A stretch of DNA of 23,043 nt, taken from positions 1 to 23,043 of IMG/VR virus record IMGVR_UViG_3300023116_005074. One strand, given 5' to 3'. Numbering within the stretch: position 1 is the stretch's first letter; each line of letters opens with the position of its first letter. Shown in pieces: positions 281 to 22,439 of the stretch. Below the pieces are notes generated by a model. The model was not told where the DNA came from and did no database searches. It saw only the letters and a list, made by a program, of their open reading frames with translations. Origin of the DNA: a virus. The position numbers and the translations under genes are program-made.

Positions 281-311
281 TTTGTTATCCTTTCTAAAAA
301 ACATATTACTT

Positions 312-320
312 GTATTTATC
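312..320 (-). promoter_or_regulatory. Late-type promoter of lysozyme gene
   Basis: The minus strand reads GATAAATAC, matching the T4 late -10 element TATAAATA. If the last A of TAAATA is -6, as in T4, transcription would start near 307 and give a leader of about 27 nt containing the AAAGGA ribosome binding site. Confidence 0.65.
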
Positions 321-639: not shown

Positions 640-668
640 ATTATAGCAAAATCAATAGGTTATGTCAA
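640..668 (-). promoter_or_regulatory. Host sigma70-type promoter
   Basis: Minus strand TTGACA (668-663), a 17-nt spacer, and TATAAT (645-640): perfect consensus hexamers. It sits directly behind the terminator of the upstream gene and drives the small membrane protein gene. Confidence 0.85.
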
Positions 669-1350: not shown

Positions 1351-1360
1351 TTATTTATCA
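1351..1360 (-). promoter_or_regulatory. Late-type promoter of the putative structural gene
   Basis: The minus strand reads TGATAAATAA, overlapping the TAA stop of the upstream SGNH gene. The predicted start near 1346 gives a leader of about 38 nt with GGAG before the ATG. Confidence 0.65.
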
Positions 1361-2145
1361 TATTCTTGTGTAATAATATCTTTAAAAAAATTTTTGTACA
1401 CTTCTATTCCTTTTTGATTAGGATGACAATCTTCGGATGATACCCAATGTGTTGAATCAAACGATAAAGATTGTAAAGGTTTATTGTCTATGAATCTGTT
1501 AAAACATGTGTCCCAATGAGGCCATTTTATTTTATATTTGGTATTAGTACGAACACAATGTCTAAGTGTTACATCACCTGTAGCATTGTATGCATGTATA
1601 AATCCCCATAAAACAGTTGCACCTTTAAAAATGTTTGCATAGTTATTGGCAATTTTAATTGCATTATATGTTTGCATCATAAAACCGTCTAGATCTGGGT
1701 CTTTACTCTTGTTATCTATTTTTTCAATATTCATTTTTTGATTAAAACATTCATCAGTATCGGATCCTGATTTCATATCAATTAAAAGTCTTTCTTTTAG
1801 TATAGGAGATACTACTGTTTCTTCGATCAACTCTGGAAGTATTGTGTAAAAACTTTTTACCATTCCTTCTTCGTAATCAAAATATGGAATTCTATCATCT
1901 ATTGTGAATCCAAAAATCAGCAAAGGTTTTTCACCTGGATTTTGTGTACACCATTCATGTATTTTCTGTACAGGTTGAATTGCTATATCGAAATTACTTG
2001 CACCTCCTTTGGCTAAGTTAGCCCATGGTATATTAAGTTCTTTTCCTAGTAAGCCCGGCCATGTTTGTGATTGGTGTATACCCAAAGTTGTTTTAGAGCC
2101 TTCTGTGAAACTATCACCTGATGCAATAATATAATCAAAATTCAT
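1351..2145 (-). CDS. SGNH/GDSL hydrolase-like protein
   Basis: A 264-aa protein from the ATG at 2145 (MNFDYIIASGDSF). SGNH blocks are visible: IIASGDSFTEG near the N-terminus with the nucleophile serine, NLAKGGASNFD as a block II-like glycine, LLIFGF as a block III-like strand, and DCHPNQKG near the C-terminus carrying the Asp/His pair. This fits an esterase/lipase or carbohydrate deacetylase fold; the substrate is unknown. Longer in-frame starts exist at 2163 and 2232. I prefer 2145 because homology begins there and because the late-type motif at 2151-2160 would start transcription exactly at this ATG. No Shine-Dalgarno sequence is seen. The upstream region overlaps the divergent uvdE promoter. 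Confidence 0.75.
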   Translation of the reverse strand: MNFDYIIASGDSFTEGSKTTLGIHQSQTWPGLLGKELNIPWANLAKGGASNFDIAIQPVQKIHEWCTQNPGEKPLLIFGFTIDDRIPYFDYEEGMVKSFYTILPELIEETVVSPILKERLLIDMKSGSDTDECFNQKMNIEKIDNKSKDPDLDGFMMQTYNAIKIANNYANIFKGATVLWGFIHAYNATGDVTLRHCVRTNTKYKIKWPHWDTCFNRFIDNKPLQSLSFDSTHWVSSEDCHPNQKGIEVYKNFFKDIITQEYDK

Positions 2146-2150
2146 ACAAT

Positions 2151-2160
2151 TATTTATTGA
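2151..2160 (-). promoter_or_regulatory. Late-type promoter giving a possibly leaderless SGNH mRNA
   Basis: The minus strand reads TCAATAAATA. TAAATA occupies 2156-2151 and is followed by exactly five bases and then the ATG at 2145, so a T4-style start would be the A of the start codon. The site overlaps the -35 hexamer of the divergent uvdE promoter by four bases. Confidence 0.55.
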
Positions 2161-2185
2161 CATTGGTATCCAACTAGTATATAAT
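2157..2185 (+). promoter_or_regulatory. Host sigma70-type promoter of uvdE, leaderless start
   Basis: TTGACA (2157-2162), a 17-nt spacer, TATAAT (2180-2185). With the -10 hexamer at -12 to -7, +1 is base 2192, which is the A of the uvdE ATG. Confidence 0.85.
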
Positions 2186-2191
2186 ACTCGT

Positions 2192-3250
2192 ATGTTTGAT
2201 AACACTATACAACGTATTGGCTTTTGTTGCAAGTATCTAGATCCTGATCAAACGCAGAAGCCTAAAATACTAAAAGAAATTCAGCAGAACTTCACGGAGA
2301 AGCAGACCACTGTGGCCTGGATGAATAGGCAAGACAAGGCTGTGGCTGAACAACGCATGTTAGATATAGTTACACATAATATGCAAAGTGCGTACAATTT
2401 GGTTAAATATGTAGGTAGCCTTCCCGAAAACAGGAGAATGGTTCGATTGGGTAGTAATCAAATCCCAATGGCTACAGAACCAACATGGCGTTATGTGTGG
2501 GAAGATCCTACTGTGGTTAAAGAACTTGAAAAGGGTTTTGGCAAAGTTGGAGAACTGGCCAAGTCTCTTGATGTTAGGCTTTCTTTTCATCCCGGGCAGT
2601 TTTGTGTTCTTGCTTCTGCTACTCCAGACATTGTGGAACGCAGTATTGACGAATTTGAGTATCATGTAAACATGGCCCGTTGGATGGGCTATGGTAAGCA
2701 ATTCCAAGACTTTAAGATCAATGTACACATATCAGGCAAGCAAGGTGCAGAAGGTATTATCAAAGTATTGCCTAAATTGTCGCCCGAAGCACTAAATACT
2801 ATTACCATTGAGAACGACGAAATGTGCTGGGGACTCGACGAAAGTCTCAAACTCAAAGATCACTTAGCACTGGTTCTCGACATACACCATCATTGGATCA
2901 GAGATGAAGAATACATACAACCCGAGGATGACAGAGTTAAAGCGGTTATCGACAGTTGGCGTGGAGTTCGCCCTGCTATGCATTACAGTTACAGTCGCGA
3001 CGAGCATCTACCTGCTGGTGACAATACCCATGTTGGTTTGCATGATATCGTGGGACTTCTTGAAGCGGGTCATAAGAAACAAAAACTAAGAGCACATTCA
3101 GACTACTATCCTAATGAAGATGCAAATCTATGGGCATTAAGTTTTATAGATAAGTTTGACATACAATGCGAGGCCAAAGCAAAAAATTTAGCCAGCGGTC
3201 AATTATACGAATTGTACAAACAAACAAAAACTCCGGAGTTTGTAAGTTGA
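2192..3250 (+). CDS. uvdE: UV-damage endonuclease UvdE/UvsE
   Basis: A 352-aa protein that should incise DNA 5' to UV photoproducts in the alternative excision repair pathway. The start MFDNTIQRIGFCCKYL matches the family N-terminus. TIM-barrel metal-site motifs follow in order: HPGQF, NVHISGK, TIENDE, LVLDIHHHWI, MHYSYSR and RAHSDYY, supplying the His/Glu/Asp metal ligands. The length is within the usual family range. The only in-frame ATG compatible with homology lies exactly at the predicted transcription start, without a Shine-Dalgarno sequence. Phage UvdE homologues are known in marine myoviruses and would protect phage DNA in sunlit water. It is transcribed away from the late SGNH gene from an early-type promoter. 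Confidence 0.93.
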   Translation: MFDNTIQRIGFCCKYLDPDQTQKPKILKEIQQNFTEKQTTVAWMNRQDKAVAEQRMLDIVTHNMQSAYNLVKYVGSLPENRRMVRLGSNQIPMATEPTWRYVWEDPTVVKELEKGFGKVGELAKSLDVRLSFHPGQFCVLASATPDIVERSIDEFEYHVNMARWMGYGKQFQDFKINVHISGKQGAEGIIKVLPKLSPEALNTITIENDEMCWGLDESLKLKDHLALVLDIHHHWIRDEEYIQPEDDRVKAVIDSWRGVRPAMHYSYSRDEHLPAGDNTHVGLHDIVGLLEAGHKKQKLRAHSDYYPNEDANLWALSFIDKFDIQCEAKAKNLASGQLYELYKQTKTPEFVS

Positions 3251-6075: not shown

Positions 6076-6564
6076 ATGACAAAAAGATTTTATTCAGGTA
6101 AAACATATACACACGCAACTGGTCACAGTTGTGCATTTAGGCAGTGGAGAGCAGACAGTCATTGTAACCTAATACATGGTTACGCATTACAGTTTGAATT
6201 CACATTTGGTGGCGAGTCTTTAGATGAACGCAACTGGATTGTAGACTTTGGTGGCCTCAAACCTTTGAAGCAATGGTTGGCTGACACGTTTGATCACACA
6301 TACTTAGCGGCAGAAGATGACCCTGAAATGGAAACATTTATAATGTTACGAAACTTAAATCTAATTGATTTGAGAATTGTATCAGCAACAGGTTGTGAAC
6401 GTTTTGCTGAAATGGCATTTGACAAAGCACAAGAGATTGTAAGTGAACTTACAGACGGAAGGTGTTGGGTACAAAAAGTTACAGTAAGAGAGCATGAAGC
6501 AAACAGTGCTACAGTTGAACTTGCTGACCATCAAAAACTGCGTTTTTTAGAAGACGTTCAGTAA
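6076..6564 (+). CDS. 6-pyruvoyl-tetrahydropterin synthase / QueD-like protein
   Basis: A 162-aa member of the PTPS/QueD superfamily, which acts on dihydroneopterin triphosphate in pterin or 7-deazaguanine (queuosine/PreQ0) synthesis. Aligning by eye with E. coli QueD gives catalytic C30 (SHCNLIHG), zinc-ligand candidates H17 and H34, the D73-H74 pair in FDHTYL, VDFGGLK, and a Glu in VREHE. The third zinc ligand, the second His of HGH, is replaced by Tyr (HGY, Y36). The FRQWRA and VDFGGLK blocks match a subfamily I recall from marine phages and alphaproteobacteria, so the change is probably a subfamily trait and not decay. The 3' end overlaps the convergent gene by 18 bases. Confidence 0.85.
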   Translation: MTKRFYSGKTYTHATGHSCAFRQWRADSHCNLIHGYALQFEFTFGGESLDERNWIVDFGGLKPLKQWLADTFDHTYLAAEDDPEMETFIMLRNLNLIDLRIVSATGCERFAEMAFDKAQEIVSELTDGRCWVQKVTVREHEANSATVELADHQKLRFLEDVQ

Positions 6565-7104
6565 TTCTTCCGCTTCTTCTTTTGACAGTGGTGTAAGGCC
6601 AGGATTATCTGGAAATACACAACAAGGTTGAACATTGTAAAAAGTATTTAATTCTTCACACCACTCTCTTTTAAAATAATTATTATCAGCGTCTTTTTCT
6701 ATACACAGTTTGTTTTCTAAATCAAACTTTACAGTAGTATAAAGTAATGCACCGGTTTGAACTTCTGAAGGTCTTTGCAATCTATCTAAGTATGTTCCAG
6801 TTTGAGAAATACCAAACATTGGAAATGCTTCTTTCCAGTCGTGTTCTTCAATCCAATCATCTTGCTGACTATCATCTAAATAAAATGGTTCGTAAGTCCC
6901 TACAACATTAGAAAAATTATCACTTAACCATTTTTTCTCATCCTCCCATGGATCATATTCCGGAGAATGATCTAACACCGTGTGTTCAGCCATGTAAAAT
7001 TTATGTATACTTTTTCCGCCTTGATAGGCAATATACACTAAATCTTCAGTTATAACACACTTTAATGTGCCGTAATCTTTGTCGTGGGTCCAATTAAGTT
7101 GCAT
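6547..7104 (-). CDS. Unknown protein, late-type promoter, apparently leaderless
   Basis: A 185-aa acidic protein with many W, Y, D and E residues and no recognised motif, signal or membrane helix. A CC pair occurs near the C-terminus (VQPCCVF). It is convergent with the PTPS-like gene, with an 18-bp 3' overlap and no visible terminator between them. The start ATG (7104) is exactly five bases after TAAATA of a GGTAAATAC late-type site on the minus strand, and there is no Shine-Dalgarno sequence. I do not recognise the family. Confidence 0.7.
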   Translation of the reverse strand: MQLNWTHDKDYGTLKCVITEDLVYIAYQGGKSIHKFYMAEHTVLDHSPEYDPWEDEKKWLSDNFSNVVGTYEPFYLDDSQQDDWIEEHDWKEAFPMFGISQTGTYLDRLQRPSEVQTGALLYTTVKFDLENKLCIEKDADNNYFKREWCEELNTFYNVQPCCVFPDNPGLTPLSKEEAEELLNVF

Positions 7105-7109
7105 AACTG

Positions 7110-7117
7110 TATTTACC
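7110..7117 (-). promoter_or_regulatory. Late-type promoter, leaderless start
   Basis: The minus strand reads GGTAAATA, then CAGTT, then ATG (7104). A T4-style start 6 nt past the motif would be the A of the start codon. It is divergent from the late-type promoter at 7122-7129, with four bases between the two motifs. Confidence 0.6.
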
Positions 7118-7121
7118 GTAA

Positions 7122-7129
7122 GATAAATA
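7122..7129 (+). promoter_or_regulatory. Late-type promoter of the clpX-bS21 operon
   Basis: GATAAATA followed by eight bases and ATG (7138). The predicted start near 7135 leaves a leader of only about 3 nt. No Shine-Dalgarno sequence is present. It probably drives all genes to 13388, since they overlap or abut. Confidence 0.6.
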
Positions 7130-7137
7130 TATTTACT

Positions 7138-8730
7138 ATGTGGTTTGGATTACTTACACTCTTTACCGCTTTAGCCATTGCTGGCGTAGCGGCTTGGTTC
7201 AGCATCGCTGGTCTTATGGCTATATTCAGTGCGGCCGCACTGCCGATTGCTGTAATGGCTGGTACATTAGAAGTAGGCAAACTGCTTACAGCAAGTTGGT
7301 TATACAGATATTGGAAAGATACTACTTTTGCTTTAAAAGCATATTTAAGTACCGCAGTCCTTGTGCTCATGATTATAACCAGTATGGGAATCTTTGGTTA
7401 TCTGTCTAAAGCTCACTTGGACCAGGCCGGTGTAAGTGGAGATGCCATTGCGGCAGTAGAACGCATAGACGGACAAATTGCTCGTGAAGAAAATCGTATT
7501 ACTATCATAGAGGATCGTATTGCCAGCATAGGCAATGGTGGTTTTGATGTACAAGACAGTATTGATGCACAAATACAAATTCGTGATACAGCATGGCAAC
7601 AAGTGCAAGGTGATATAGATTATAACCAAGGTCAGATAGAAAGTGTAAGATCGCAACTTACTGTAGACTTAGCATCACTTGATACAAGATTAGCGGCACT
7701 AGATAAAGCGGTAAATGATCTCAGAGCAAAAGGCACAGAAGTAATTGAAACTGATGCTGGCGGCGTGTTTAGAGCCGCAGAAACAGAAACTATTGATTAC
7801 GGTGCTCAAGCAGATGCGTTGCGAGCCACGCAACAAACAGAGCGTGATCAAATAGCAGACCAGCAACAAAGTTTAAGAGCACAATCAACTGCTGACATAA
7901 AAGTATTTCAGGATGCTATTGACCGATACAGAAGTCAAGCACAAGAAACAATACAAGGTGCTAATGCAGAAATAAACAGATTGCGAAACCAAAGCACAAG
8001 TTCACAGGATGATGCTTTGGATCAGATAGACACTTTTAATAGCGAAATAGACACAATTTACGATAGAATAGCAACACTTAGGGACGAAAAGTTTGAAGCA
8101 GAAAGTGCTGTTAGAGAATTAGAAAAAGAGGTAGGGCCAATCAAATATGTAGCACAATTATTATTTGGTGGCGATGGGGAGGATCTGTTGGACAAAGCAG
8201 TCCAAGTATTCATACTGATGTTAGTTTTTGTCTTTGACCCACTAGCAGTTATGCTAGTTATTGCGGCTAACCAAACATTGTTAAGGTATGGAATAAACTT
8301 AGAGAAAGCAGGACCGGATAATGGAAATAAAACCAACAGTAAACATTCCGCCGGAGATAAAGCGATTTATGGGGGAGCCGCAGATAGATCGTCAACAGAA
8401 GAGGACAATAATAAAGATCTTACCGAAGGACCAAATACAGCAGACGAAAGTGTACCTTTACAACAAGTGGGGACAACTGGAACTAGCGGTAGTGTTCGAC
8501 CAGTCGATCGACCTTCAAGTGTAGACGATGCGGCTACTGCAATAATGGAAAGCGCCGCCGAAAAAAAAAGAATCGCAGAACTGGAAAAAGAACTTAAGAA
8601 GAAAGAAAGAGAGTTAGCAAAAAAACCTAAGGAAATTGTAATTGAGAAAGAAGTAGATTTTAAACTTAAGACTCCTAGAGCAATAGAAAAGTTAGAGAAA
8701 AAATTACAGGAGAAATTAGATGGCAAGTAA
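7138..8730 (+). CDS. Large membrane coiled-coil protein
   Basis: A 530-aa protein from the ATG at 7138; an upstream in-frame ATG at 7084 lies inside the divergent gene and before the promoter. Predicted layout: three N-terminal membrane helices (about 4-22, 24-46 and 70-90), a long heptad-rich region rich in A, E, D, Q and R (about 95-335), a further hydrophobic segment (about 350-380), a disordered polar linker (about 395-460), and a charged C-terminal coil with KKKERELAKKPKE. The tail DFKLKTPRAIEKLEKKL recurs in the next small protein. It has no enzymatic motif. It may form a membrane-anchored scaffold in the infected cell, or an inner-membrane component of the virion entry machinery; neither can be decided here. 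It is the first gene of the clpX operon. Confidence 0.75.
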   Translation: MWFGLLTLFTALAIAGVAAWFSIAGLMAIFSAAALPIAVMAGTLEVGKLLTASWLYRYWKDTTFALKAYLSTAVLVLMIITSMGIFGYLSKAHLDQAGVSGDAIAAVERIDGQIAREENRITIIEDRIASIGNGGFDVQDSIDAQIQIRDTAWQQVQGDIDYNQGQIESVRSQLTVDLASLDTRLAALDKAVNDLRAKGTEVIETDAGGVFRAAETETIDYGAQADALRATQQTERDQIADQQQSLRAQSTADIKVFQDAIDRYRSQAQETIQGANAEINRLRNQSTSSQDDALDQIDTFNSEIDTIYDRIATLRDEKFEAESAVRELEKEVGPIKYVAQLLFGGDGEDLLDKAVQVFILMLVFVFDPLAVMLVIAANQTLLRYGINLEKAGPDNGNKTNSKHSAGDKAIYGGAADRSSTEEDNNKDLTEGPNTADESVPLQQVGTTGTSGSVRPVDRPSSVDDAATAIMESAAEKKRIAELEKELKKKERELAKKPKEIVIEKEVDFKLKTPRAIEKLEKKLQEKLDGK

Positions 8731-16116: not shown

Positions 16117-16422
16117 ATGGCCAGAGAGCAAACTAGAACAAAGTCCAAGACCAAATCGGAAATCTTGTTTCCTAACAGATACAATGTCGTTGTGCTGAAT
16201 GATGATTTTACACCTATGGAATTTGTTATTCAATTACTAGTCGAAATCTTCAACAGGACTTTAGAAGAAGCAAAAAATATCACGATCGAAATACATGAAG
16301 ACGGTCGAGGTATTGCAGGCACATACAGTCACGAAATAGCAGAACAAAAAACATCTGAATCGGTGATGATATCAAGGCACAATGGCCATCCTCTTAAAAT
16401 CATTACTGAGAAGATGCAGTGA
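16117..16422 (+). CDS. clpS: ClpS, N-end-rule adaptor
   Basis: A 101-aa adaptor that hands N-degron substrates to Clp unfoldases. [20 protein letters not shown] matches the ClpS core, with N28, D29 and D30 lining the pocket, the T32-P33-M34 gate region, and H60 (IEIH) corresponding to H66 of E. coli ClpS. The C-terminal HPLKIITEK matches the HPL block. The N-terminal extension ([15 protein letters not shown]) that would enter the ClpA pore is present. The ribosome binding site is good and the gene heads the early operon; its TGA overlaps the GTG of sufB by 4 bases. Classical ClpS partners ClpA, while this phage carries ClpX; host ClpA may be the partner. Confidence 0.93.
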
Positions 16423-17867
16423 CCGAATACAGAGAGTTAGACAACAAATATACAGCAGGTTTTAGCACACAGGTCGAAAGTGAAGATTTTGAACCTGGAC
16501 TTAATGCTGATGTTGTTAAACGACTCAGTGCCCTCAAAAATGAACCTGGATGGGTTACAGAATTTAGACTTAATGCATTTGAACATTTACAAAAAATCAA
16601 AGAACCCGATTGGGCTAATGTAGATTATGCACCAATTGACTACCAAGCATTAAGTTATTACTCAGCACCCAAGTTTAGAAACAAAGAAGATATACCACAA
16701 GAAATATTAGACACCTTTGATAAACTTGGTGTACCTCTACATGAGCGAGATGCACTATTGGGTGTCGAAGAACAAGACACAAAAATTATTCCCACAGTAG
16801 CAGTTGACGCAGTATTTGATAGTGTTAGTATTGCTACAACATTTCAAGACGAATTACAAAAGCATGGCATCATATTTTGCAGTATAAGTGAAGCCATACA
16901 AGATCATCCAGAACTCGTAAAAGAGTATTTAGGTAGTGTTGTTCCTTCCAAAGACAACTACTTTGCTTGCCTAAATAGTGCTGTCTTTACTGACGGCACA
17001 TTCTGTTATATTCCACCGGGTGTTAAATGCCCAATGGAATTAAACACATACTTCCGCATCAATGCTAGAAACACTGGGCAATTTGAACGCACTTTGATTA
17101 TAGCAGATGCGGATAGTTATGTCAGTTACTTGGAAGGTTGTACTGCACCAGCATATGATGAAAACACATTGCATGCCGCTGTTGTAGAACTTGTAGCACA
17201 TGATAGAGCAGAGATCAAATATTCAACAGTACAAAACTGGTACCCAGGAGATGAGAATGGTGTAGGTGGTGTACTAAACTTTGTTACAAAGAGAGGTATA
17301 TGTAAAGGTGAAAGTTCAAAGATTAGTTGGACCCAAGTTGAGACAGGCAGTGCTGTTACTTGGAAATATCCCTCCTGTATATTACGAGGCGACAATAGTG
17401 TTGGTGAGTTTTACAGTGTTGCGGTAACCAAAGGAAAACAACAAGCAGACACAGGAACAAAAATGTTCCATGTAGGCAAGAATACCAAAAGCACCATCAT
17501 AAGCAAAGGTATTAGTTTTGGTGATAGCTCAAACACATACAGAGGTATGGTTAGAATTAATAGTGGTGCTAGTAATAGTAGAAACTTTACACAATGTGAT
17601 AGTTTAATGCTTGATAACAGCAGAGCAATTACCATACCTGTAATTTCACAACTTAACGATAATAGTATAGTAGAGCACGAAGCAACAACAGGTAAACTAT
17701 CAGAAGAAGCAATGTACTATTTGCAAAGCAGAGGATTAGACGAAGAGAACGCAGTAAATTGTGTTGTGAATGGTTTTTGTAAAGATGTATTTCAAAAGTT
17801 ACCACTTGAATTTGCCGCAGAAGCAAACAAATTATTAAGTGTTACACTTGAAGGAGCAGTAGGATAA
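16419..17867 (+). CDS. sufB: SufB, Fe-S scaffold subunit
   Basis: A 482-aa subunit of the SufBC2D complex on which Fe-S clusters are built. It is full length compared with bacterial SufB (about 480-495). Hallmark blocks are [62 protein letters not shown]-like [16 protein letters not shown] (the conserved cysteine), [18 protein letters not shown] and [16 protein letters not shown]. The GTG start overlaps clpS by 4 bases, and the stop overlaps the sufC ATG by 1 base. All expected conserved cysteines that I can identify are kept, suggesting an active protein. Confidence 0.97.
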
Positions 17868-18592
17868 TGTTAGTTACACAAGAGTTCACAGTAAAAGCAG
17901 AAGGCAAAACAATCTTAAATGATTTGCATTTAGATTTTGGTCCTGGCATTCATATTATAATGGGTCCTAATGGCATTGGTAAAAGTACACTAGCTCATGC
18001 GTTAATGGGTAATCCCAAGTACACAGTATCAGGAGCCGCACAGTTAGACGGTAAAGATATACTTGCATTAGAGCCGCACGAAAGAGCTCGAGCAGGATTG
18101 TTTGTAAGTTTTCAAAATCCTACTCCTATTGCAGGCATAAGCAATTTTCAATTTGTTAAAGAATCTTTAATACAGCAAGAAAAAATGACTAACTCAATGT
18201 CCGACATTACTCAAGTACTTAATGATTATAAAGACTACAGTGATGTATTTGGTTTACCATCAGACTTTCACAAAAAACAATTAAATGTAGAAGCAAGTGG
18301 CGGTGAGAAAAAGAAAAACGAAATTATACAGATGCTGTTATCTAAACCTAAGGTTTCTATTTTAGATGAACCGGATAGTGGACTGGACATTGATTCTATC
18401 AATCAGTTAAGCAAACAACTAAAAACATTTGCATTAGAAAATGATAACAGAACAGTAATTATTATAACACACTATGAAAAATTAATTGACTCGTTATCAC
18501 CGGATACTGTTACAATATTAAGAAAAGATAAAGTAGAAAAAGGCGATGTAGAGTTGGCATACAAAGTATTTGAGGATGGCTTTGGTGAATAG
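17867..18592 (+). CDS. sufC: SufC, ABC-type ATPase of the SUF complex
   Basis: A 241-aa ATPase that drives conformational change in SufBC2D. Walker A is GPNGIGKST (33-41), the Q-loop Q83 lies in SFQNPTP, the signature ASGGEKKKNE (143-152) is the SufC variant, and Walker B is VSILDEPDSGLDID (163-176). THYEKLI holds the switch histidine. The length is close to E. coli SufC (248). The start overlaps the sufB stop (TAATG); the 3' end overlaps sufD by 17 bases or less. Confidence 0.97.
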   Translation: MLVTQEFTVKAEGKTILNDLHLDFGPGIHIIMGPNGIGKSTLAHALMGNPKYTVSGAAQLDGKDILALEPHERARAGLFVSFQNPTPIAGISNFQFVKESLIQQEKMTNSMSDITQVLNDYKDYSDVFGLPSDFHKKQLNVEASGGEKKKNEIIQMLLSKPKVSILDEPDSGLDIDSINQLSKQLKTFALENDNRTVIIITHYEKLIDSLSPDTVTILRKDKVEKGDVELAYKVFEDGFGE

Positions 18593-19748
18593 TGCAAAAT
18601 TCAAAATAGGAGATTTACCTAAAATACTTAAACATGGCTTTAGAAATAATCTAATGACTCACAGATTTAAAAAAGAAACCATGGCATTGTCTGTGGCTGA
18701 ATACTTACCTAGTTTAAATATTGCTTTTGAAAAGTTACACAAATATAAAAATACTAACATTAATAGTTTTCTAAACAAAGAAGTGATAACTCCTAACAAC
18801 AATAGAACACAGTTTCATGATCATGTCTCTGAAGCTCAACCTATAGATTTTCATATTAGAGACGGAGCAGTAATACAAGGCTTTAATGCAAAAATAAAAC
18901 ATGCTTTTAAAGTTCATGATTTATATAGCAGTGTTAGTACAATGCAAAAATATCAAAGTTTTTTTGAACCGAATAATGATATATCAGATTTAGGTTTTTT
19001 AAATACTATAATGCCTCTGGCAATTAAAATGTCTAATTATAAAAGAGAAAACTTAGTTTTAAAGTATGATGTAGAGGCTAACGATTTACATTGTGACACT
19101 ATTGTTATAGATGTTGGTAAAAATAGTAAATTAGATTTAACAGAGTTAATTGGTGATAGCGGAAGTCATATATTAAATGTTTTTTATATACTTAGAGAAA
19201 ATTCTAGCCTTACACTAAACAGAAACATCACTAATAGTAATACATATATAAATTCAAAAGTTATACAAGAACCTGGTAGTAGATTTGCTATGTCATGTAC
19301 GACAGGAGATATCGATTTTAGTTATCAAAATATAGATGTTGACTCGTACCACAATTGCCATACTTACATTGACAATAGGAATGCGTTAACCGGAGATAGA
19401 ATAAACAATTTTGTTGTAAACATTAATCACCTAGGCAGAGAAAGTTTTAGTAATATAGATTCAAAGACTATAGTAGACGACAACTCAATAAATTATTTTA
19501 AAGGTAACATTTTTATTGATAAAGAAGCAGAAAATATCAATGCTCACATGTTAAATAAAAATTTGCAAATTAGTAAAAAAGCAAAAGTATATACAGAGCC
19601 TACATTAGATATATTGAACAAAGAGGTGGTATGTTCACATGGATGTACTATAAGTAACATAGATGAGAATGAATTATATTATTTACAAACTAAAGGATTA
19701 GACAAAACTCAATCTATTAATATACTTAAGGATGCATTTTTAAAATGA
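18576..19748 (+). CDS. sufD: SufD-like scaffold subunit, diverged
   Basis: About 390 aa. The C-terminal part is clearly SufD: TEPTLDILNKEVVCSHGCTI (written here only to 20 residues) with the Cys and His (CSHG, about residues 353-356) that match the conserved SufD sites, then IDENELYYLQTKGLD. The N-terminal two thirds are poorly recognisable and rich in N, K and I, and the gene appears more AT-rich than sufB and sufC. The start is uncertain: ATG 18576, or GTG 18585, which has GAGG nine bases upstream; TTG 18570 is less likely. Its stop overlaps sufS by 4 bases. It is placed as SufD by C-terminal motif and gene order. Confidence 0.9.
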   Translation: MALVNSAKFKIGDLPKILKHGFRNNLMTHRFKKETMALSVAEYLPSLNIAFEKLHKYKNTNINSFLNKEVITPNNNRTQFHDHVSEAQPIDFHIRDGAVIQGFNAKIKHAFKVHDLYSSVSTMQKYQSFFEPNNDISDLGFLNTIMPLAIKMSNYKRENLVLKYDVEANDLHCDTIVIDVGKNSKLDLTELIGDSGSHILNVFYILRENSSLTLNRNITNSNTYINSKVIQEPGSRFAMSCTTGDIDFSYQNIDVDSYHNCHTYIDNRNALTGDRINNFVVNINHLGRESFSNIDSKTIVDDNSINYFKGNIFIDKEAENINAHMLNKNLQISKKAKVYTEPTLDILNKEVVCSHGCTISNIDENELYYLQTKGLDKTQSINILKDAFLK

Positions 19749-20923
19749 AGGATTATTTTAAAACATTAATAAACAACCCGGAACTGGCATACTTTGATAG
19801 TGCGGCAAGCACACAAACATTTCAAGGTGTGGTTAACCGTATAACACAATATTATGAAAACGAAAGATGTAATATACATCGAGGTGACTTTCCTCAAAGT
19901 ATCAAAGTAACAGACGAATGTGAAGAAGCAAGAGAAAGTGTTGCAAAATTAATAAATGCTAATGCTGAACAAATTATGTTTACCTCCGGAGCCACAGATG
20001 GATTAAACATGGTTGCTAAGTGGTGTGAAAATGCCAAAGTTGTAATTATCAGTGAGGCCGAACACAGTGCAAACATACTACCTTGGATAGCACAAGGTAG
20101 AACAATAGACAATGGCAGATTGGTTGTGTTGCCGTTGTCAAGTAGAGGAGTAGTAGATCCAGATGTTGCTAATGAAACATTTAAAAAACATCCTGATGCT
20201 GTTCTAAGTTTAATATCAACTAGCAATGTAAACGGACTTACTAACGATTTAAAAACAATCATAGGCATGGCCCATGAGCATGGCATACCGGTGTGTATAG
20301 ATGCATGTCAAACATTAAGCAGTCACAAGATTGATGTGGAAGATCTTAAACCAGACTGGTTAGTTGCTAGTGGCCATAAAATGTTTGGTCCTACTGGTAT
20401 AGGATTTTTATATAGTAGATCAAGTTACAATGACTTTAGACCAATTAGATATGGTGGCGGTACTGTAACCAGTTACAACTTTCATGGTTCAATCGATTTT
20501 TATAATGGTCCCGTTAAACATGAGGCAGGAACTCCTAACATAGCAGGTATACTAGGACTAGGTGTTGCGGCAGAATGGATTAATTATATTGGCTATGATG
20601 AAATAAAATCTAGACTAGTTACTGTTCAGAGTTGGCTTGACGGTTATGGTTTATTTAACATAAGTGGCATGCAGTTAGTTCATCCGGGTGACGAAGTAAG
20701 AAATGTGTTCAGTTTTACAACTGATGTACACCCTACAGACATTAGTACATACTTAGGGTTAGACAATATTGCAACTAGAGTCGGTAAAGTATGTGCTCAC
20801 CCAATAGTAAACAAATACGGTAACGGTGCTATACTTAGAATAAGCACACACATATATAACGACGAACAGGATTGTAAAAAGTTAGTAAATTCATTATGTC
20901 AAACGATACAGAAATTAAGTTAG
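19745..20923 (+). CDS. sufS: SufS, class II cysteine desulfurase
   Basis: A 392-aa PLP enzyme that takes sulfur from cysteine. Motifs are LAYFDSAASTQ at the N-terminus, H107 in EAEHSAN above the PLP ring, D186/Q189 in CIDACQT, the PLP lysine K212 in SGHKMFGPTG, HEAGTPNIAGI, the catalytic C350 in RVGKVCAHP and R365 in LRIS. The length is close to SufS (E. coli 406). Class II desulfurases usually need SufE or SufU for sulfur transfer; none is seen in this window, so a host partner may serve. It overlaps sufD by 4 and sufT by 28 bases. Confidence 0.96.
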   Translation: MKDYFKTLINNPELAYFDSAASTQTFQGVVNRITQYYENERCNIHRGDFPQSIKVTDECEEARESVAKLINANAEQIMFTSGATDGLNMVAKWCENAKVVIISEAEHSANILPWIAQGRTIDNGRLVVLPLSSRGVVDPDVANETFKKHPDAVLSLISTSNVNGLTNDLKTIIGMAHEHGIPVCIDACQTLSSHKIDVEDLKPDWLVASGHKMFGPTGIGFLYSRSSYNDFRPIRYGGGTVTSYNFHGSIDFYNGPVKHEAGTPNIAGILGLGVAAEWINYIGYDEIKSRLVTVQSWLDGYGLFNISGMQLVHPGDEVRNVFSFTTDVHPTDISTYLGLDNIATRVGKVCAHPIVNKYGNGAILRISTHIYNDEQDCKKLVNSLCQTIQKLS

Positions 20924-21219
20924 AAGATAAGGTACGCAGTAATTTGCGTAGAGTTATTGATCCTGAAATAGGAATCAACATTGTTGACCTCGGCTTGATA
21001 TATGATATTAATGTAAACGAAGAAAATGATGTACAAGTTTTAATGACATTAACTGCACCAAATTGCCCTTACGGTGATATGATTATTATGGAAACCGAGT
21101 TTGCAGTACGCAGTGTTAAAGATGTAAATTTAGTAAAAATAAATTTAACATTTGATCCTCCGTGGAATCCGGATCAACATGTAACTGATGAAGCCAAATA
21201 TCAAATGGGTATATTATAA
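20896..21219 (+). CDS. sufT: SufT / DUF59 (MIP18-like) Fe-S maturation protein
   Basis: A 107-aa DUF59 protein. RRVIDPEIGINIVDLGLIYD and the VLMTLTAPNCPYGDMI block with its single conserved Cys (C56), followed by LTFDPPWNP, are diagnostic. SufT proteins help Fe-S cluster transfer to targets and are often encoded last in alphaproteobacterial suf operons before an A-type carrier. The ATG lies inside sufS (28-bp overlap). Paralogues such as PaaD share the fold, but the operon context favours SufT. Confidence 0.92.
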   Translation: MSNDTEIKLEDKVRSNLRRVIDPEIGINIVDLGLIYDINVNEENDVQVLMTLTAPNCPYGDMIIMETEFAVRSVKDVNLVKINLTFDPPWNPDQHVTDEAKYQMGIL

Positions 21220-22431: not shown

Positions 22432-22439
22432 TATAAATA
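22432..22439 (+). promoter_or_regulatory. Late promoter, exact TATAAATA, leaderless start
   Basis: TATAAATA, five bases (TATGC), then ATG at 22445: the predicted start is the A of the start codon. No Shine-Dalgarno sequence is present. Confidence 0.7.

Follow-up and report, generated by a model that had tools for sequence, protein, structure and literature searches.

The 46-bp gap across which the ATG at 2145 (minus strand) and the ATG at 2192 (plus strand) diverge very probably constitutes a divergent cassette for two leaderless mRNAs, and comparison with related sequences suggests that it is one instance of a genome-wide mode of expression in a marine T4-related phage group. The gap lies in the virus fragment IMGVR_UViG_3300023116_005074 of IMG/VR, the whole of which (23,043 bp) is referred to here as the window, and it separates uvdE, encoding a UV damage endonuclease, from an SGNH/GDSL-hydrolase-like gene (Table 1). 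In the mechanism we propose, host sigma-70 polymerase would act early on TTGACA-N17-TATAAT and begin the uvdE mRNA on the first letter of its AUG; a late-type phage polymerase would later use the TAAATA box to begin the SGNH mRNA at the corresponding A, and 70S ribosomes would bind each message directly at its 5'-terminal AUG, unaided by a Shine-Dalgarno sequence. The rule seen in the group is a promoter fused to the start codon at a fixed offset, with six nucleotides between a sigma-70 -10 hexamer and the ATG (N6) and five between a late box and the ATG (N5).

Table 1. Coordinates of genes and promoter elements in the window
Feature	Position	Strand	Remarks
uvdE (UV damage endonuclease) CDS	2192..3250	+	Pfam PF03851 UvdE E=4e-38; phrog_8420 E=5e-75
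uvdE -35 hexamer TTGACA	2157..2162	+	6/6 to consensus; conserved in relatives
uvdE -10 hexamer TATAAT	2180..2185	+	17 nt from -35, 6 nt from ATG
SGNH/GDSL-hydrolase-like gene	1351..2145	-	ATG 2145 is also the predicted +1
Late-type box AATAAATA	2151..2158	-	TAAATA core 2156-2151; 5 nt from SGNH ATG; same N5 box in divergent relatives
Alternative in-frame SGNH ATG	2161..2163	-	not conserved; 18 nt upstream of 2145
Late box TAAATA	7110..7115	-	5 nt upstream of ATG 7104(-)
Hypothetical gene	6547..7104	-	predicted leaderless late start
Late box TAAATA	7124..7129	+	8 nt upstream of ATG 7138; predicted 3-nt leader
Perfect late box TATAAATA	22432..22439	+	8/8; 5 nt before ATG 22445, last gene; predicted leaderless late start
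Consensus promoter of gene starting 604(-), for contrast	640..668	-	predicted 29-nt leader, AGGAGGT Shine-Dalgarno

The uvdE/SGNH gap and its counterparts in relatives

The promoter elements of both genes were found exactly where the original prediction had placed them. Upstream of uvdE, the promoter scores 12/12 against TTGACA/TATAAT with a spacing of 17, which fits the sigma-70 criterion (16-18 nt), and the six nucleotides ACTCGT lie between the -10 hexamer and the ATG. With this hexamer taken as -12 to -7, the predicted +1 is 2192. On the opposite strand, TAAATA is separated from the SGNH ATG by ATTGT, and the entire box AATAAATA matches the T4-type late octamer TATAAATA, a promoter type that requires no -35 hexamer, at 7/8 positions. 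The TA of the T4 late octamer is numbered as "positions -13/-12" (PMC2988020), and taking the octamer as -13 to -6 gives a predicted +1 of 2145. Neither start had been credited with a Shine-Dalgarno sequence, and the sequence agrees on this point, with a duplex energy upstream of the uvdE start of +0.7 kcal/mol. The comparative data strongly support the further proposal that both +1 positions coincide with the A of ATG, although the positions themselves stay predictions derived from box geometry and offsets.

The original identification of the minus-strand gene as SGNH was likewise right. Pfam and PHROG searches with its product gave no match; the label is supported because the GDS, GG/N and DxHP blocks are kept in 16 homologues, with G10-D11-S12 and D239/H241 invariant, and because the AlphaFold model of the protein (pLDDT 83) resembles TesA and GDSL esterases, the best Foldseek matches (E 2e-6). 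Its start deserves scrutiny, as an in-frame ATG at 2163 could instead be the true one, read under other promoters, in which case the late box would be incidental. This ATG is preceded a few nucleotides upstream by a weak GGA in the window and is in frame in 8/21 non-redundant loci (the window and seven others), but 13/21 lack it or have it out of frame and nonetheless retain N5, which makes 2145 the conserved start. Furthermore, the predicted first beta-strand comprises residues 5-9 counted from 2145, so that the modeled fold would be complete without the extension. Initiation at 2163 is consequently very unlikely. With its start at 2145, the SGNH gene stands at TAAATA-N5-ATG in 20 of the 21 non-redundant divergent loci, the exception being L046. 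On the SGNH side of L046-L049, TAAATA-N5-ATG opens a 4-codon ORF (MEEQ*), the TAA of which overlaps the next ATG (TAATG), the apparent SGNH start, yielding a leaderless mini-ORF with a stop-start overlap.

The uvdE side was compared over 81 loci, comprising the window and 80 relatives, and the first methionine is aligned in nearly all of the latter. The gap between the -10 hexamer and the ATG is 6 nt in 24/81 loci, 27-53 nt in 29/81 and 7-26 nt in none, while 28/81 are without a promoter of their own. Leadered loci mostly carry an AGG-type Shine-Dalgarno sequence before the ATG (AAAGG, TAGGT or AGGTAGG), whereas leaderless loci do not. Conservation inside one gene family is partly shared ancestry; on the uvdE tree, the leaderless state changes 10 times, with at least 6 changes forced by well-supported branches, and leaderless uvdE sits in several upstream contexts, opposite a divergent SGNH gene as well as in others (L054, L061, L062, L068, L073). 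Upstream of uvdE in L038, L041 and L056-L058, an 8-codon ORF (MFTHLHNS*, MFTTVHNL*) is found exactly at the TATAAT-N6 position. The stop codon of this ORF, TAG, shares bases with a Shine-Dalgarno-like TAGGT ahead of the real uvdE ATG, an arrangement in which a leaderless mini-uORF may couple translation.

Distances between boxes and start codons across genomes

Each ATG opening at least 60 codons was scored for its distance from TAAATA and TATAAT. In the pooled loci, TAAATA-N5-ATG accounts for 63 starts (N4, 0; N6, 2) and TATAAT-N6-ATG for 21 (N5, 1; N7, 1), such that both peaks are a single base wide. The N5 peak recurs in each of five long contigs from this phage group (8, 13, 14, 25 and 9 starts, with other short offsets averaging 0.1-0.7; P 4e-10 to 4e-39) and in the pelagiphage HTVC008M (12 starts, P=8e-10), and weakly in Mosig (6 starts, P=6e-4), these P values being indicative because they are Poisson values against neighboring offsets and homologous genes recur between contigs. 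Elsewhere, the N5 counts are 3 in T4, 0 in KVP40, 0 in Syn9, 1 in S-PM2 and 4 in P-SSM2. In T4 itself, the distance for late starts peaks at ~28 nt, and the late genes of this phage are textbook examples of messages with Shine-Dalgarno leaders. HTVC008M has nine N5 ATGs in its first 50 kb, and every one is an annotated start, many of them of structural genes. The five contigs share 15-105 proteins pairwise at a mean identity of 51-61% and are distant from T4 (6-13 shared proteins), their terminase being nearest those of PA5oct and Phosso.

These distributions bear on the simplest alternative, namely that A+T-rich intergenic DNA yields promoter-like strings beside start codons by chance. TAAATA does occur in the window at chance level (41 vs. 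41.3 expected), and of the window's five 12/12 promoters with a 17-nt spacing one is inside a gene. The sharp peaks, however, are found only at ATGs that start ORFs, both in the five contigs and in HTVC008M; ATGs opening fewer than 20 codons in the five contigs yield a flat background with no N5 peak, and T4, KVP40, Syn9 and S-PM2 are flat at similar G+C (0.35-0.42). A chance origin was thereby ruled out. It is thus the position of the boxes, and not their frequency, that is non-random, a distinction that the window could not provide by itself, but its relatives do.

As a control for the gap, IMG/VR was scanned for TATTTAGTTGACA-N17-TATAAT with 5 or 7 nt, rather than 6, separating it from an ATG. 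This returned 23 stretches with 5 nt and 9 with 7 nt, nearly all from one phrog_12791 late-sigma family. Most of these genes have their own GGAG Shine-Dalgarno sequence as well as a second ATG ~20 nt downstream, and the matches were excluded as leaderless genes on these grounds. The N6 scans returned 51 + 23 stretches from about a dozen gene families; since they also catch the phrog_12791 sigma family, raw stretch counts are unclean as evidence and the offset histograms are preferred. The promoter that drives the phrog_12791 late-sigma genes in L209-L214, L216 and L218-L240 is of the consensus sigma-70 type and directly abuts TATTTA; in several loci an ATG close to the 5' end, sometimes as an ATG-TAA start-stop, lies just ahead of the GGAG-led start.

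Several further features are those expected of leaderless genes. Firstly, the N5 and N6 offsets differ by one base, which matches the established geometries of late boxes and sigma-70 -10 hexamers: transcription starting on the A of ATG would give N6 for a -10 hexamer ending at -7 and N5 for a late octamer ending at -6 (PMC2988020). Secondly, the median Shine-Dalgarno energy is 0.0 at N5 starts and 0.1 at N6 starts, vs. -4.45 for leadered late promoters. Thirdly, N5 start codons comprise 91 ATG, 4 GTG and 3 TTG, a near-exclusive use of ATG that would be accounted for by the demand of 5'-terminal initiation for AUG. The consensus of 73 N5 starts is GATAAATA-C-T-A/T-G-T/C|ATG, and leadered late promoters display T at -1 in 51% and A at +1 in 52%, at the same offset as N5.

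The same data can be set against a near-leaderless alternative, in which RNA polymerase would start 1-3 nt before the A and leave a tiny leader too short for a Shine-Dalgarno sequence. Such a leader is conceivable because sigma-70 transcription starts normally wobble by a few bases, and a conserved N8 subclass (the gene at 7138 with its homologues, and a lysozyme-like gene near 281) predicts one of 3 nt. Against this, neither the N5 nor the N6 peak is wider than one base and the leadered late promoters favor A exactly at the N5 position, which makes the near-leaderless alternative unlikely compared with initiation on the A itself.

Leaderless expression also appears feasible with alphaproteobacterial hosts, since in Caulobacter, an alphaproteobacterium, leaderless and leadered messages are translated equally well (PMC4117421). 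Hosts of this class are known for HTVC008M and Mosig; the sufB of the window has a mixed proteobacterial affinity, Pelagibacteraceae included. The idea that any alphaproteobacterial phage would exhibit the pattern was unsupported: phiM12, phiM9, Phosso (Sinorhizobium), Atu_ph07 (Agrobacterium) and PA5oct lack a clear excess of TAAATA-N5-ATG over a reversed-pattern control, although these five phages may use other boxes. Translation initiation factor 3 affects leaderless initiation; no phage-encoded copy was found in the uvdE group, HTVC008M or Mosig. The first kb of MF403008 (the Agrobacterium jumbo phage Atu_ph07) contains an annotated translation initiation factor 3.

Gene classes and the abutting promoters

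The early and late assignment of the two boxes fits the gene classes that carry each, as the tested N5 genes encode terminase, virion and connector proteins and the tested N6 genes are those for primase, exonuclease and UvdE. It could be argued instead that TAAATA is a variant host -10 hexamer and that both genes are read by host sigma-70, with no phage-specific late promoter involved. TAAATA does resemble a -10 hexamer, and no late sigma of either the gp55 or the phrog_12791 type was found in ten uvdE-group contigs, all of them possibly fragments; a weak phrog_19643 match in G007 was judged spurious. Yet a -10 hexamer would give a +1 one base further (N6), whereas the TAAATA peak is at N5, the N5 genes are of the terminase, virion and connector kind, and the nearest isolates by terminase (PA5oct, Phosso and Atu_ph07) carry the phrog_12791 late sigma. 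A host-only origin of the SGNH transcript is therefore improbable. The gp55-family late sigma is present in HTVC008M, Syn9 and T4.

The late box and the uvdE promoter are immediate neighbors. The original prediction had the late element sharing four bases with the uvdE -35 hexamer; this was an overestimate, as the octamer AATAAATA (2158-2151) shares 2 bp and the TAAATA hexamer none. Polymerases starting at 2192 and 2145 would nonetheless cover overlapping DNA, given the size of their footprints, and mutual exclusion would consequently be likely if both acted at once. Exclusion between early and late promoters is thus plausible and a reasonable expectation. Whether the abutment reflects genome compaction only, or also a regulatory exclusion of one transcription by the other, is an evenly balanced question. 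Where starts are leaderless, the DNA between genes can contract, to 26-57 bp in several unrelated cassettes, and timing alone could keep early and late transcription apart. On the other hand, TAAATA and TTGAC lie 0-1 nt apart in those non-redundant loci that retain both elements intact, and this spacing is kept even where uvdE has a leader of 20-30 nt that would leave its promoter free to drift, as well as over SGNH proteins mostly 30-50% identical to that of the window.

Known leaderless systems and further cassettes

Leaderless starts are known for single phage genes, and their use at genome scale in T4-like phages, here with two promoter classes, appears, as far as we found, to be undescribed. 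Phage lambda is named as the first leaderless case (PMC3160421), its cI mRNA being leaderless (PMC9031893). As proposed here, cI is a phage gene read from the A of AUG and translated without a Shine-Dalgarno sequence; unlike the present case, it is a single lysogeny gene with one sigma-70 promoter, whereas here there are many genes of T4-related phages, with early and late promoters, and divergent pairs. The T4 late promoter (gp55/gp33/gp45), a lone A+T-rich octamer placed roughly one helical turn before the start (PMC2988020), is comparable in its form and in serving packaging and virion genes, but the group consensus GATAAATA lies exactly 5 nt from the ATG in many genes, as opposed to a peak near 28 nt for T4 late starts. 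In bacteria, a fixed short distance between the -10 hexamer and the start codon is a signature of leaderless genes, as in TA-led bacterial genes and in Deinococcus-Thermus (PMC3160421, PMC12340547); these, like those of Caulobacter, are cellular, whereas the present ones are viral, with two promoter classes and two offsets. Lastly, 5'-terminal AUG mini-ORFs upstream of Shine-Dalgarno-led genes have been described (PMC4965119). The short ORFs of L038, L056 and L046 resemble them in standing exactly at the leaderless position ahead of the real start, but differ in that they look derived from a leaderless start that moved downstream. No report of leaderless transcription in T4-like phages was found in the open literature on cyanophages, pelagiphages, late promoters and phage transcriptomics.

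A broader reading, which we advance tentatively and regard as somewhat less probable than not, is that leaderless late (and some early) transcription is genome-wide in at least two distant marine T4-related groups, namely the uvdE group and SAR11 myophages such as HTVC008M, and was adopted independently of T4, KVP40 and the cyanophages. It would define a separate class of 5'-AUG-dependent virion and packaging mRNAs, with divergent cassettes shrinking to the point of promoter exclusion. If true, the virion and packaging output of abundant marine T4-related phages would hinge upon how host ribosomes handle 5'-terminal AUGs, which would also bear on the competition between phage and host messages. 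In practical terms, TAAATA-N5-ATG and TATAAT-N6-ATG provide a sequence-only rule for calling starts and promoters across the thousands of contigs from uncultivated phages, and the leaderless offsets can correct gene-start annotation. HTVC008M on Pelagibacter is a cultured system in which leaderless late starts would be directly testable.

The window has several cassettes of this kind besides the uvdE/SGNH pair; the original prediction had missed both this and the genome-wide extent of the pattern. The genes at 7104(-), with N5, and 7138(+), with N8, form another divergent cassette, in which each strand has a late box and the ATGs are 33 bp apart. It is conserved in L099, L103, L104 and L154, and homologues of the 7138(+) gene have N5 in L061, G002, G003 and G007. 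Beyond the window, an unrelated divergent pair encoding proteins of 414 and 687 aa has the early-N6/late-N5 design in L087, L089, L095, L097, L098 and L100. In HTVC008M (L083), gp2 (DNA end protector; 18916, minus strand) and gp4 (head completion; 18943, plus strand) are separated by 26 bp between ATGs and both stand at TAAATA-N5; a gp2-like gene of Mosig (L194:16970-) is likewise at N5.

Other genes of the window present different arrangements. For the lysozyme-like gene at 281-318 (minus strand), TGATAAATA-N8-ATG is conserved in 13 loci, and a second in-frame start (MDRK/MNRE) lies downstream, with a Shine-Dalgarno-like AAAGGA in the window, giving two possible starts. Within 16117-21219, a clpS-like gene precedes a suf operon (sufB, C, D and S and a sufT-like gene), here in a phage; the consensus promoter ahead of these genes has a predicted leader of 23 nt and AGGAAGG.
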